Below are positions 1 through 7,300 of a stretch of DNA of 41,018 nucleotides, piece by piece. The position numbers were made by a program, and so were the translations under genes. The stretch lies in contig CAIRXW010000007.1 of the NCBI GenBank assembly GCA_903882665.1, positions 1 through 41,018 of the forward strand, given 5' to 3'. The DNA is from an uncultured Chlorobiaceae bacterium (GTDB lineage: Bacteria; Bacteroidota; Chlorobiia; Chlorobiales; Chlorobiaceae). Numbering within the stretch: position 1 is the first letter of the stretch; each line of letters starts with the position of its first letter. The notes beneath the pieces were generated by a model that ran no database searches, was not told where the DNA came from, and saw nothing but the letters and a program-made list of their open reading frames with translations.

Positions 1-721
1 CCACTCCTCTGCTCAGGCTCTGCCATCTCTCAAACGCGCCCAAGTCAGGAAAAAGCTTCACCCTCCGCCCTTGCAAGCTTTTCAACTTCTCCTTGTTGAG
101 ATTCTGCTTTCCTGCTGTTGCCATCCAGATGAACTCAGGGATAAAACCACTGGCAACAAGAGCCGTCTTCTCACTCTCAACAACCGCCACCGGCTTCACG
201 GTGTCAAGGGTAAGCAAGTGTTCACCGAAAAAGCACTGCCGCAAATGGTAAGGCTCAATCTTCATCACACGATGCACCCAATTCACATGAGGAAACGGCT
301 CTTTCACACGACGACCCGTTTCAACATCATAAAGCATCACCTTCCCGCCTCTGACACGGTTAGCCGTATCGATCTGCCAAAAGACTGACGAACCTGCCCA
401 ATGCTTCGACGTCCCGATCTGGTACAATGCCGTAAGCTCAAAGGCTCTCTCTTCACCCAGCACGCCACAAAGCCACCGGCAGAAGTTGTTCTGCTCATAT
501 CTGGCAAGGCTGGCGCGCATCACCCCAGCATCAATAAACGACGGCTCAGATGTTGGCTGCTTTGGTCGGTGTGTGGGCATCGTAACCCTGAAAGGCTTCT
601 TGCCGGTCACCTGAAAGTACTCACTCGGTCTCAAGTGATAACCGCAGGAATCCTCACGATCACACCACCCTGCATGATCCGCCACCTGCTCACCAGTGAC
701 GTTATTTAAGTGTATTCCCAT
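1..721 (-). pseudogene. DUF6371/Toprim-like protein, N-terminally truncated and cut by the window edge
   Basis: An uninterrupted minus-strand reading frame runs from an ATG at 721 to the window edge (about 240 codons visible). It starts inside what looks like the second half of a zinc ribbon (NNVTGEQVADHAGWCD, then REDSCGYH). A Toprim-like segment follows near residues 170-230: VAVVESEKTALVAS, then LFPDLGAFERW, with the acidic residues expected of that fold. The arrangement matches DUF6371 proteins, which are known from mobile elements and prophage-like regions of the Bacteroidetes/Chlorobi group. The first CxxC half of the ribbon is missing: upstream in frame there is only a degenerate FCFPC and then a stop inside the ssrA terminator. 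It therefore appears to be a remnant whose 5' end was lost at the ssrA boundary. The family is inferred from motif memory; the intact C-terminus cannot be judged. Confidence 0.6.
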
Positions 722-740
722 AGACCACGTGAGACACGGA

Positions 741-770
741 AAACAAAAAAGCCCTTGCAAAACAAGGGCT
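741..770 (-). terminator. Rho-independent terminator of ssrA
   Basis: Read on the minus strand, a 7-bp stem GCCCTTG/CAAGGGC with a 5-nt loop is followed by a T-rich run (TTTTTTGTTT). It lies about 40 nt past the tmRNA 3' end and before the truncated reading frame to its left. Confidence 0.8.
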
Positions 771-807
771 TACGGTCTTTCTGGGATGTTAAAAAACTCA
801 TACTTTG

Positions 808-1207
808 TGGAGATGGCGGGAATCGAACCCGCGTCCAGAACATTGCTCAATAAAGCTGCCACACTCATCTCAGGTGTTCGTTGTTTCATGAACCGGTGCT
901 ACACCTGTAAAGTTTGGTTCACTATCCCTCTTTGATTCACCCGCCTGCCTTTTCGGGCAAAAACAGTCGGAGCTTACTTGCGCGAACCGAAGCTCAAGCG
1001 CTGGTTATGCCATCCGGTGGCTTCAGAGTAAGCGCCTCCCCCATCGGACGATGGCTGATTAATTAACTTGTGCTAATCAGGCAGCCATTGCATACGAATA
1101 ATCGTCTGCATATAATGTTGCATAGACTTCTTTTACGAGTCCATCCATGCTGAAACTCGGAGTGCAACTCCATCTTACACCTGCCCTGTCGAAAGCCTGT
1201 CATCCCC
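808..1207 (-). ncRNA. ssrA: tmRNA (transfer-messenger RNA)
   Basis: This is the trans-translation RNA that rescues stalled ribosomes and tags the stalled peptide for proteolysis. The 5' end GGGGATGACAGGCTTTCGAC pairs with the 3' end CATCTCC to form a 7-bp acceptor stem with one G-U pair. The T arm is GCGGG-TTCGATT-CCCGC just inside the 3' end. The discriminator A is at 808, and the next bases read CAA, so CCA is not encoded and must be added. An internal tag frame encodes ADDYSYAMAA. The length of about 400 nt suits a one-piece tmRNA. A sigma70-like promoter lies upstream and a terminator downstream. The call is secure; the end points rest on the acceptor stem. Confidence 0.96.
1077..1109 (-). 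other. tmRNA proteolysis-tag reading frame
   Basis: The resume codon GCA opens a ten-codon frame encoding ADDYSYAMAA, followed by TGA. The C-terminal Ala-Met-Ala-Ala fits recognition by ClpXP-type proteases. From memory this is the tag reported for Chlorobium/Chlorobaculum tmRNA, which supports the lineage assignment. Confidence 0.92.
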
Positions 1208-2442: not shown

Positions 2443-2949
2443 ATGAAGCAATACTCATTCTGTCCGATATGCGGCACAACACTTGACCGGGCCATGATTG
2501 ATGGCCGCGACCGGATGTTTTGCCCATCATGCTTATGGGTGCACTACATCAACCCCCTTCCTGTCGCGGTCGCCTATACCATCAACACCAGGAACGAACT
2601 CCTTGTCATCCGCCGGGCTCATGAACCGGCGCTGAATGAGTGGGCCCTTCCGGGAGGTTTTCTTGAAGCTGGTGAAGAGCCGCACGAAGGATGTCTGCGT
2701 GAACTGATGGAAGAGACCTCTCTGGAAGGGAAAATTGATCGTCTGATCGGGATCTATCACCGGGAGGTTGAACTGTACGGTTCGCTCCTTGTTGTCGCCT
2801 ACAGGGTGGTGGTTGCTGATGACGCCATAACGATCAACCATGAACTTTTCGAAGCAGATTTTTATCCCCGCCATCTCATTCCTGACGTGCGCATCCCCTT
2901 GCACCGCCAGATCATCACCGATGCTGCCCTGCACGACTCCATGGGCTGA
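2443..2949 (+). CDS. Nudix hydrolase with N-terminal zinc ribbon
   Basis: The 168-residue protein begins with a zinc ribbon (C7, C10, C27, C30; FCPICG then FCPSC). The Nudix fold follows, with box GGFLEAGEEPHEG...RELMEETS at about residues 71-92 matching GX5EX7REUXEEXGU (T replaces the last G). This architecture resembles NudC/NADH-pyrophosphatase-like and ADP-ribose pyrophosphatase-like enzymes, which hydrolyse nucleoside diphosphates linked to another moiety. The SQPWPxPxS motif of true NudC is absent, so the substrate is left open. It is divergent from bcp (84 nt apart) and is monocistronic. Confidence 0.88.
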   Translation: MKQYSFCPICGTTLDRAMIDGRDRMFCPSCLWVHYINPLPVAVAYTINTRNELLVIRRAHEPALNEWALPGGFLEAGEEPHEGCLRELMEETSLEGKIDRLIGIYHREVELYGSLLVVAYRVVVADDAITINHELFEADFYPRHLIPDVRIPLHRQIITDAALHDSMG

Positions 2950-3261
2950 AGCTGCTGATTCACTCCCGGGGAGAGGGCGATGGGTGCAGGGTCTTCCGCC
3001 ATGCCTCAAAGGAGGGAGCACACTCGTTTGGAGTATGCCAAGCAGCTTTCTGCTGCGGCTCACCAGTGGGGTTAACAGAAAAGAGAGTACGCCATTGGCA
3101 AGATGCGCCTCAAGCTTCTTTCTGCCCCAGATAAGGGGACAGGTGGAGATATCCTCTACCATAACCAGCCTCTCTGCATTGCAACACACTGTCGCACAAG
3201 CAGCTACCATCAGTGGAGTCATGGCAGCATTCCTATGAGAAACATGGCTTCAGGAATGGCT
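2950..3261. other. Intergenic stretch with no supported gene
   Basis: Long frames cross this 312-nt gap on both strands, but none has a recognisable domain, a convincing ribosome binding site or independence from the flanking nudix and ABC genes. It lies between convergent genes. Confidence 0.5.
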
Positions 3262-4233
3262 TCAAAGCTCCCCGACTTTCCAGCAAGCCGCCTCGTGACC
3301 CGCTTCATAAACACGCAGTTCAGGCTGTTCGCGGCGGCAGCGGGCATCGGCATGAGGGCACCTGCCCGCAAACCGGCACCCCTCAGGCAAGTTGACTGCG
3401 CTCGGCACATTGCCTTCGATAACATGAAGCCGCTCTTTTGAAGAGCCAAGACGGGGAATGGAGTGCAGCAACCCCCTGGTATAGGGGTGAAGCGGATTGT
3501 TGAAAAGCTGCTGCACCAAACCCTTCTCGACCACTCTCGATGCATACATGACAAGAACCTCTTCACAAAGCTCGGCCACAACCCCGAAATCGTGGGTAAT
3601 GAGGATCACACTCATTCCGGTGTCACCCTGAAGCTTGCCTATAAGGTCAAGTATCTGCGCCTGGACGGTGACATCGAGCGCTGTGGTCGGCTCATCGGCA
3701 ATGAGCAGCTCGGGGTTGCAGGAGAGCGCCATGGCAATCATCACCCGCTGACGCATCCCGCCTGAAAGTTCATGGGGATAGGATGAAAAACGTTCCGCAG
3801 GGTTTGGAATTCCGACAAGATTAAGCAGTTCAACAGAGCGTTTTTTCGCCTCCGCATGGCTGACGTCACGGTGAATGAGAATTTGTTCCATAATCTGGCT
3901 GCCGCAGGTAAAAACCGGATTGAGCGAACTCATCGGCTCCTGGAAAATCATGGCAATCTCATTGCCCCGCAACTTGCGCATGTCATCTTCAGAAAGTTTC
4001 AGGAGATCCCTCCCTTTCCAGAAAATCTCCCCTCCCGCGAAATATCCGGGAGGACTGGGCACAAGACGCATCAGAGAGAGCGCCGTTACCGATTTTCCGC
4101 ACCCCGACTCCCCGACAATTCCCAGCGTACGGTTGCGGCCCAGCGAAAAGCTCACACCGTCAACGGCTTTTGCAACACCACTGTCAGTTGAGTAGTAAGT
4201 CCTGAGATTTTTCAGTTCAAGAATTTTTTCCAT
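3262..4233 (-). CDS. Oligopeptide/dipeptide ABC transporter ATP-binding protein (OppD/DppD type)
   Basis: This 323-residue ATPase would energise an inner-membrane peptide or nickel-type importer. The Walker A is GESGCGKS (about residue 41), the Q-loop [13 protein letters not shown], the signature LSGGMRQR, the Walker [13 protein letters not shown] and the switch LITHDF. The C-terminal oligo_HPY extension is present: [15 protein letters not shown] and then [11 protein letters not shown] with the conserved cysteines. The ATG at 4233 replaces an upstream in-frame TTG because [10 protein letters not shown] is the usual family start. No permease, binding protein or OppF partner is in the window, so it is an orphan here. 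It is divergent from mfd with a 70-nt gap. Confidence 0.9.
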
Positions 4234-4303
4234 ATATAACAATCTTATATCCCGCAGGCGCTGGTTTTAAAGATTTCAGTTTGCCGGAGTCAAGCATGAA
4301 AAT

Positions 4304-7300
4304 ATGGTTTGTACGCTACATATGAAAACGTTATCAGATTCAGACCCGCAAAGCAGTACCGTCAGCAAAAAAAATCCCGGTTTTCTTTTTGATACCATCA
4401 GGCAATCAACTCCATACGCCTTACTGAAAGAGGCACCGGCAACGAGCCTGCCCGGCAAAAAAAGAGAGTATACCCCAACCTCCATCTCCGGCCTGCAAGG
4501 ATCACTCGCTTCGATCATTGCCGCAGCACTTTTTACTGACCACCCCTCATCACTCATGGTTCTCTGCGGCCAGAACAGCTTCGAGCGCTATGAAAATGAT
4601 TTTGCTGCCCTTCTGCCAAAAGAGAGCATCTGCAACACCTCGGATGAGCTCTCCCTCTCAATCGGAGCTCTCTCAACCAAAAAAAAATCGGTCATTCTCT
4701 CCTTTTTTGATGATCTTGAGGTCACCCTTTGCCCGCCAGCCGAAGCCGAGAAGCGCATTTTCCGGCTGACAACCGATCTCAATGCAGGATATGAAACATT
4801 GAAACGCTTTCTTTCGGCAAACAGCTTTGAACTGAGGGAGTTTGTTGAAGATGAGGGAGAGTTCTCCGTGCGCGGCTCAATCATTGACGTCTTTCCTTTC
4901 GGGGCGCAGGAACCCGTGCGGATAGAATTTTTCGGCAATACCGTCACCTCAATGCGCGTGTTTGACATCAACAGTCAACTTTCCGGCAAAACGGTGGGAA
5001 CCGCCGATCTGACCGCCAGTTTTACTGATGCCCTGCACAGCACCACAGAGGCTGAAACAACCATTCTTGACTATCTTGATCCAGCAACGATCATTATCAT
5101 TGATGACAGCACGGAATTTGCGTTACGGGATAACCATGAGAGCATGACGAGAGCGCTTTCACGCTTCCGCACTATCAGAATTGACGCTTCTGCACCTTCG
5201 GTAATCGATTTCTGTTCCAGCCCGCAGAAAAAACTGAACGCCAATTTCCGCACTCTTGCCACCCTGCTCCAACAGGAGACCGCAGAACACAAAAAGCCCC
5301 TCTTTGCAACCAGTTCACGCCGCGAAATTGCCGAGTTGACCGATTTTCTTGCTGCGGAGATATCGAACTCAAAAAACACCGGCCAGCTTGAAGCAAGCTG
5401 GATTCCGATCAATCTGCATACCGGGTTTATTTTCGGCGATCTTGACCTCTATACCGAATCGGACATCTTCGGCAAGCTGCACGCCCACAAGGCGCACCGG
5501 AAAAGAAAAATTCGTGGCATCTCACTCAAGGATCTCCAGAAGCTCAAAGTGGGCGACTATGTTGTCCATGAGGATTACGGCATCGGAATTTTCCGCTCAC
5601 TTGAAACCATAACGGCGGGAAATTCCGAGCAGGAGTGTGTGCTTGTCGAATACGCGGGAGGCGACAAGCTTTTTGTCAATATCCAGAATATCCGGTTACT
5701 TTCGAAGTATACGGCATCCGAAAGCTCTCTTCCGGCCCTCTCAAAGCTTGGCAGTTCAAAATGGGCCGCCAAAAAAGATAAAGTCCGCAAGCAACTCCGC
5801 GATATTGCCATCAATCTGATAAAGGTATATGCGCAGCGAAAAATGCAACCCGGCTTTGCCTTTGCGCCCGACTCGATCTACATGCGTGAATTCGAGGCCT
5901 CGTTTATTTTCGACGAAACACCCGATCAGCTCAGGGCAATTCACGACGTCAAAAAAGATATGCAGGAAGCTCACCCGATGGATCGGCTGATCTGCGGGGA
6001 TGCCGGTTTTGGAAAAACCGAGATTGCCATGCGGGCGACATTCAAAGCGGTTGAATCCGGTAAACAGGTTGCCGTGCTGACACCGACAACCATTCTTGCC
6101 CACCAGCATGCGGAATCCTTTACCAGACGGTTTGAGAATTTTCCAATTTCGATAGCGGTGCTCAGCCGCTTTGTGACGCGCAAGGAGCAGCAGGATATCA
6201 TCAAAAAAATAGCACTCGGAACCATTGATATTGTGATAGGGACGCATCGGCTTGTCTCGAAAGATGTGCTCTTCAAGGATCTCGGACTGCTCGTCATTGA
6301 TGAAGAGCAGCACTTCGGCGTAGAGGTGAAAGAGAAGCTGCGCGAACAGTTCCCCGGGGTCGATACGCTCACCATGTCGGCCACCCCCATTCCGCGAACC
6401 CTCCAGTTTTCGATGCTTGGCGCCAGGGATCTCTCCATTGTCTCAACCCCTCCAAAAAACCGCCAGCCCGTCGAAACCCTCATTACCGATTATGATCCGG
6501 CCCTTATCCAGTCGGCTATAACGCGAGAGATCAAGCGGGAAGGGCAGGTATTTTTTCTCCACAACCGCATTGCATCGCTTGATGATATCCTGACAACACT
6601 CCGCGAGCTTGTCCCCTCTGCCCGGATTGTCTTCGCCCACGGCCAACTGCCCCCGAGAGAGCTTGAAAAAATTATGATGGATTTCATGCAGAAAGAGGTG
6701 GACGTGCTGATCTCCACCACCATCATCGGCTCCGGGCTCGACATCTCCAATGCCAATACCATTATCATCAACCGCGCCGACATGTTCGGGCTCTCCGATC
6801 TCTACCAGTTACGCGGAAGGGTTGGACGGAGTGAACGGAAAGCCTACTGCTACCTCATCACTCCACCGCTGAACTCCCTGAAAAAGGATGCCGTTCAGCG
6901 CCTCGCCGTTATTGAAAGCTTTACGGAGCTGGGATCGGGCTTCAACATCGCCCTGCGCGACCTTGATATCCGGGGGGCAGGCAACCTGCTTGGAGCGGAA
7001 CAGTCGGGCTATATCCATGAACTCGGCTTCGATCTCTACCAGAAAATGCTTGAAGAGACTGTTGCCGAGCTCAAATCAACCGAGTTCAGCCACATGTTTT
7101 CAGCCGAGGGAGCAAAGGCTGCAAGAGCAACAAAAGCTTGTGACCTCCTCTTCTTTTTTGACGCTCTCATTCCGGAATACTATCTCACCGCCACCCCCGA
7201 GCGTTTCGCCTTTTATGACAAAATCTCGAAAGCCTCCACCGAGCACAAGGTTGATACCCTTGAGGCTGAACTCAAGGATCGCTTCGGCCCTCTCCCCGAA

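Follow-up and report, generated by a model that had tools for sequence, protein, structure and literature searches.

Genomic islands that integrate into tmRNA genes and regenerate the target gene are well known (PMC4383910, PMC3146451), and in E. coli the excision of CP4-57 from ssrA is a switch of ribosome rescue (PMC10107115). The locus reported here is a decayed member of this known kind, an ssrA-integrated island. It resembles the Islander class and E. coli CP4-57 in that the 3' end of the tmRNA gene is the target, the gene is regenerated, and a displaced fragment of it lies at the far end (PMC4383910, PMC10107115). Unlike them, it has lost its integrase and left arm-like sites, the terminator of its target gene has been replaced, and its host is a green sulfur bacterium. 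It is also similar to the ssrA islands of Dehalococcoides, where several islands follow ssrA in tandem and 20 bp of the gene are repeated; those islands use a serine recombinase, whereas the relatives of our element carry a tyrosine integrase (PMC3146451). The string "terminat" has no match in PMC4383910 or PMC3146451, and the four "terminator" passages in PMC10107115 concern other genes.

The window, i.e., the whole stretch of DNA analyzed, is the complete contig C7 (41,018 bases) of a 2.8-Mb genome in 57 contigs (G000), whose nearest relatives are named Chlorobiaceae MAGs, which places the host among the green sulfur bacteria. Base 1 of the window is base 1 of the contig, and the contig has no DNA further left. 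The ssrA gene encodes the tag peptide ADDYSYAMAA and is intact, and its 3' end is directly adjoined by element DNA. On the minus strand the order is ssrA (807-1207), the left end of the element (704-806), and a DUF6371 gene that runs from 703 to the contig end. The features are as follows:

807 to 1207, minus strand: ssrA (tmRNA gene), the integration target, regenerated by the element (ARAGORN; Rfam RF00023, 115.4 bits)
804 to 826, minus strand: attL core, the ssrA 3' end, with one mismatch to C43:140834-140856 (attR)
704 to 806, minus strand: DNA of the element's left end, lying between the tmRNA 3' end and the deletion joint (identity to the left ends of G055 and L003, 100/103 and 97/103)
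740 to 769, minus strand: putative element-borne replacement terminator, the first after ssrA (hairpin 751-769 and T-run 740-750)
703 to 704, minus strand: deletion junction (by comparison with L005; identical joint in L003)
608 to 712, minus strand: what is left of the zinc ribbon, its second half (positions 28-62 of Zn_ribbon_16; frame residues 17-51)
2 to 703, minus strand: DUF6371 gene with a primase-like core, lacking its 5' part and cut by the contig end (in-frame fusion to ATG 721; TTG 760)

We searched 86 genomes of the family and obtained an ssrA match in 80, from which 40 stretches were chosen; with the window, L003 and L005 this made 43. Three stretches were left out, L127 and L128 because their ssrA end could not be used and L122 because just 1 nt follows ssrA in it, which gave 40 loci from 39 genomes. 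A hairpin followed by a T-run was found within 110 nt after the tmRNA in all 40 loci, 37 of them at -8 kcal/mol or better, as against 88 and 26, respectively, of 400 control stretches drawn at random from these loci. The hairpin started 3-15 nt past the tmRNA end in 14 loci (native-type) and 25-53 nt past it in 26 (element-type); in L105 and L108 the script chose weak hairpins at 53 and 43, and the G+C-rich hairpin starts at 31.

In relatives, ssrA and metB are syntenic, and metB (cystathionine gamma-synthase, as we read its sequence) is the gene beyond the variable region. At an empty site, L106, ssrA is followed by a native terminator, a SAM riboswitch and metB, with no insertion; the SAM riboswitch precedes metB in both loci tested, L106 and L113. 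In G000, metB lies on another contig, C43, and about 3.8 kb before it the 3' end of ssrA recurs as a 22-bp repeat (C43:140834-140855), followed by a strong hairpin and a T-run. A genome-wide search with the 22-base core, with one variable base left open and two mismatches allowed, returned exactly two sites, ssrA and the C43 copy, and the reversed control pattern returned none; the core was matched in 0 of 200 shuffles of the 14.7-kb C43 stretch. The repeat together with the next 40 nt aligned with ssrA plus the native terminator of L100, L102, L103 and L109 (80-84% over 62-66 nt), and its alignment with element-type loci was limited to the 23-25-nt core. We read the C43 copy as attR followed by the displaced native ssrA terminator. 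No sequence examined connects C7 with C43; the two contigs would be the two sides of one region, as the synteny suggests, with the displaced fragment of the target gene at its far end.

Just inside attR lie a GGTATA pair, similar to those of the left ends described below, and two joined fragments of the 665-aa gene of the element. Since this gene comes before DUF6371 in the intact element, there were probably once at least two copies of the element family in tandem. Deeper in the island, the opposite strand (L140:4788-9199, a stretch of C43) carries genes that resemble those for a small terminase subunit, a DnaD-like loader and a RusA-like resolvase. Also on the island side of attR (L140:9328-13766), a phosphorylase (PNP_UDP_1) is fused to an NBR1-type Ig domain (PADLOC matches, E ~1e-11), next to an alpha/beta hydrolase, a Mur ligase and a GNAT-like protein by our reading; this cargo is perhaps a defence or small-molecule cluster. 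When 21 loci were searched for an attR with at most two mismatches, the only convincing case besides C43 was L118 (G026). It carries another insertion, with a different hairpin at the left end; at +4869 after ssrA, a repeat similar to attR is accompanied by a native-type terminator that has been displaced.

The hairpin in the window starts about 37 nt past the tmRNA end, and the whole terminator lies in the first 70 nt of the element. Its fold is more stable than expected (z = -3.78; equally stable shuffles, 0/200), and a hairpin of the same type stands in the integrase-bearing left ends L005, L094 and L099. The preliminary description of this DNA had taken the hairpin for the terminator of ssrA itself and drawn the boundary at 772. 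Seen in the window alone, a hairpin directly after ssrA does resemble an ordinary intrinsic terminator, and one could suppose that it is native and that the element was inserted just downstream, with a boundary at about 735-772. However, the terminator behind attR on C43 is a different one, whose homologues in native-class relatives come immediately after ssrA, and the hairpin in the window belongs to DNA continuous with integrase-bearing left ends. With C43 taken as the far side, the attR sequence contradicts a native origin of the hairpin, which we consider highly improbable. The boundary is instead the tmRNA 3' end (804-826). Because the attR copy on C43 has a native-type terminator behind it, the terminator in the window is, by this comparison, the element's own: it appears to have come with the element, the native ssrA terminator having been displaced to C43. 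The hairpin at 751-769 presumably terminates ssrA in vivo.

The intact arrangement is seen in L005 (the ssrA locus of G062), where the tmRNA end (1-143) is followed by an integrase (349-1653), a 665-aa gene (2452-4449) and DUF6371 (4446-5366). DUF6371 is whole both there and in L004. The L005 integrase has the domains Arm-DNA-bind_3, Phage_int_M and Phage_integrase, and we take its family to be what is called P4-type. The 665-aa gene had no Pfam or PHROG match, and a helicase role comes only from our reading of its sequence. An integrase of this type lies directly after ssrA in G062, G023 and G028. In all five integrase-bearing left ends we found a pair of arm-like (G/A)GTATA sites at about +115 and +127 and a TATACC at about +167 (background frequency of such sites, 0.34-0.51 per kb); the first 110 nt after the tmRNA contain none in the window and L003.

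In G000 the L005-family integrase had no match, and for this reason we file the window copy, judged by its gene content, as a decayed derivative and not as a complete island. G000 has nine matches to the tyrosine-integrase family, none of them on C7 or C43 among the seven listed, and these other integrases may be able to help in trans. None of the contigs examined spans a complete element of exactly this family from one end to the other. G055 (L094) has 98% identity to the window over ssrA plus left end, the agreement running up to base 704. Past its 103 nt, G055 continues with arm-like sites and then a shortened integrase, behind which lie transposase-like frames. These frames, IS3-like as we read them, break up the ssrA-adjacent integrase at L094:1161-2338, and the interruption may represent a different route of immobilisation in a close relative of the element.

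The gene content is also reminiscent of P4-like and PICI-like phage satellites. The intact relative combines a P4-type integrase with a primase-like gene, and the small terminase subunit, DnaD-like loader and RusA-like genes near attR are putative members of the element. Unlike for such satellites, no helper phage is known here.

Compared with L005, about 4.3 kb is missing from the window, comprising the left arm-like sites, the integrase, the 665-aa gene and the first half of the zinc ribbon. At the junction the left end of the element, whose last base is 704, meets the zinc-ribbon coding region halfway along, and no clear case of microhomology was seen at the 703/704 joint. The preliminary description stated that half of the ribbon was lost exactly where the terminator begins. 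The loss of the half-ribbon (positions 1-27) was borne out, but the break lies elsewhere, since 36 nt of the element left end (704-739) separate it from the T-run.

The window begins at the first base of its contig, and MAG contigs can end in chimeras, so that the junction might be an assembly artefact. L003, a separate MAG contig of 3,392 bases, has the identical arrangement and joint, with divergence on both sides of it. Because the joint is identical in a separate assembly, it is not a contig artefact, and we regard the chance of a chimera as negligible. In the DUF6371 part, L003 was marginally nearer to the intact L004 (dS 0.066) than to the window (dS 0.079), a pattern not expected from a single shared deletion unless recombination or rate noise is involved. 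We tried L003:1100-3392 as a bridge to the missing left side and rejected it: in G000 only 2200-2798 matched, on C16, apart from two short, weak matches on C28, and the gap stays. The matching part is a two-gene DUF2283 module (L003:2200-2798 and G000:C16:890-1489, 90% identity) whose surroundings differ in the two genomes.

The frame left by the deletion (2-760, minus strand) matched PF19898 over all 150 positions of the profile with 206.5 bits. Zn_ribbon_16 was matched only at positions 28-62 of 65, positions 1-27 being missing, whereas the intact relative L004 was matched at 1-61. The first three codons of the remainder of the ribbon (608-712) are left-end DNA. The zinc ribbon of the window copy is thus incomplete, with half of the zinc site gone. 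DUF6371 gave a single match in G000, with no second copy.

For the intact protein, we obtained a model of L004 with a mean pLDDT of 80.6, reaching 86-97 in blocks over residues 81-300, with low confidence in the zinc-ribbon part. Its best PDB fold matches were Twinkle, the DnaG core and T7 primase (best E 6.8e-6), with TM scores of about 0.33-0.48 by query length; a PDB sequence search with the DUF6371 profile gave no match. Because the TM score reaches only 0.48, the likeness of the predicted intact protein to a primase catalytic core holds at the level of the fold only. DUF6371 proteins were also found in 11 plasmid records, nine with at least 80% coverage, and in six phage records that cover 89-92% of the protein at 34-47% identity; csAssE-Sib, among the latter, is annotated as DNA primase/helicase. 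In these Bacteroidetes plasmids and gut phages the gene is carried on the plasmid or phage, whereas here it is in an ssrA-integrated element. Our search of the literature on DUF6371 returned one paper only, on Ornithobacterium hominis.

The truncated DUF6371 might be a kept, N-terminally shortened protein that starts from ATG 721 inside element DNA. The frame is open across all 240 codons present, and the fused frame is kept in both lineages, the window and L003, with 95% amino acid identity. Across 233 codons they are separated by 12 synonymous changes and 9 nonsynonymous ones (dN/dS 0.21), and the latter are fewer than the neutral expectation (Fisher p 6e-4; binomial p 7e-4). This value nevertheless exceeds the 0.125-0.132 of the post-junction part of intact copies, although the branch counts are small (9 nonsynonymous and 12 synonymous on the truncated branches, 1 and 7 on the L004 branch). 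Moreover, part of the divergence may be older than the deletion or may come from recombination with intact copies, and the truncated protein lacks half of its zinc site. We consider a retained short protein unlikely. The truncated gene nevertheless still shows purifying selection, and the word remnant in the preliminary description may undersell the gene.

The left end of the window, then, very probably reflects an ssrA-integrated element that replaced the terminator, displaced the native one, and was immobilised at its left end by a deletion of about 4.3 kb. An element with a P4-type tyrosine integrase would have inserted at the ssrA 3' end, presumably by site-specific recombination over about 22 shared bp, and would have supplied the tmRNA 3' end and a new intrinsic terminator in place of the native one. 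The native terminator would thereby have come to lie at attR, the island's far end towards metB. A single later deletion of about 4.3 kb would then have fused the left end, at a point 103 nt past ssrA, with the zinc-ribbon coding region of DUF6371 at its middle, after which the left end would no longer be excisable by its own machinery and would stay as a scar. The suggestion in the preliminary description that integration at ssrA left a scar here, or that an island ends here, is supported by the integrase directly after ssrA in relatives, though not in G000, by the direct repeat of the ssrA 3' end, whose sole other site in the genome is on the metB side, and by the alternation of native-type and element-type sites among related genomes. 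We did not find the opposite situation, in which DUF6371 would be intact and conserved at this position while both a repeat and an integrase were missing from its vicinity.

We then considered how far this extends in the family. A near full-length integrase was present in four of the 26 element-type loci (G062, G023, G028 and G040:C75, the last broken by one internal stop), an integrase cut short in one (G055), and debris downstream in four (G037, G040:C16, G036 and G026). No trace of the L005-family integrase was found in the other 17 within the stretch read, which ranged from 0.8 kb (the window) to 19.5 kb after ssrA. A search of 30 genomes for any tyrosine integrase beside ssrA gave no further one among the matches listed. 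At G080 (L113) the gap between ssrA and metB is below 600 bp and no element gene was seen, and the terminator is element-type. An element origin of the terminator is supported by the surrounding sequence at loci with an integrase or debris and by the combined evidence in the window; the remaining element-type terminators were assigned to elements because their spacing and sequence are alike.

In a tree built from the ssrA body with 37 rows (23 element-type and 14 native-type; L003, which is too short, L005 and L133 are absent), terminator type changes at least nine times, and five changes are forced by well-supported branches. Shuffled labels gave a mean of 11.6 changes, and because 37 of 500 shuffles were as low as the observed nine, terminator type is at most weakly clustered on the tree. 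L100 (G068) has a native-class hairpin after ssrA with arm-like sites and integrase debris behind it, so terminator class is an imperfect marker of occupancy; this hybrid end may have arisen by recombination between att regions.

Two other observations were made at these loci. In L128 (G082:C11, ~21510), a CRISPR-like array of 28 repeats has a 35-nt spacer that matches the ssrA 3' end of its own genome with one substitution and one extra base; the spacer possibly comes from the attP of an ssrA-integrating element, or is self-targeting. In L102, L103, L104 and L105 (G085, G035, G084 and G083), ssrA is followed by what looks like a type I restriction-modification locus, as read from the L103 sequences.

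A broader proposal would be that the ssrA terminator has repeatedly been swapped for that of an element in the genus, and that selection for ssrA 3'-end formation preserves it as a long-lasting scar, with deletions stopping short of it. We offer this tentatively, being nearly evenly divided about it and leaning slightly to doubt. Replacement of the terminator of a target gene, surviving after the loss of the element, may be new, and its novelty is uncertain. Among the matches listed in the open-licence literature, none concerned ssrA islands of Chlorobium or terminator replacement at tRNA or tmRNA integration sites, from which we do not claim that it is absent from print. The work of Williams (2002, 2003) reportedly treats integration in tmRNA and tRNA genes and would be the likeliest place for a prior notice of terminator replacement.

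Taken together, one locus and its relatives show the way in which an element, once integrated, loses its mobility and decays. They suggest that the longest-lasting part is what the host needs, the terminator of its tmRNA gene. A terminator beside a tRNA-like integration target may thus belong to a mobile element, and island boundaries drawn at such a terminator would be off.
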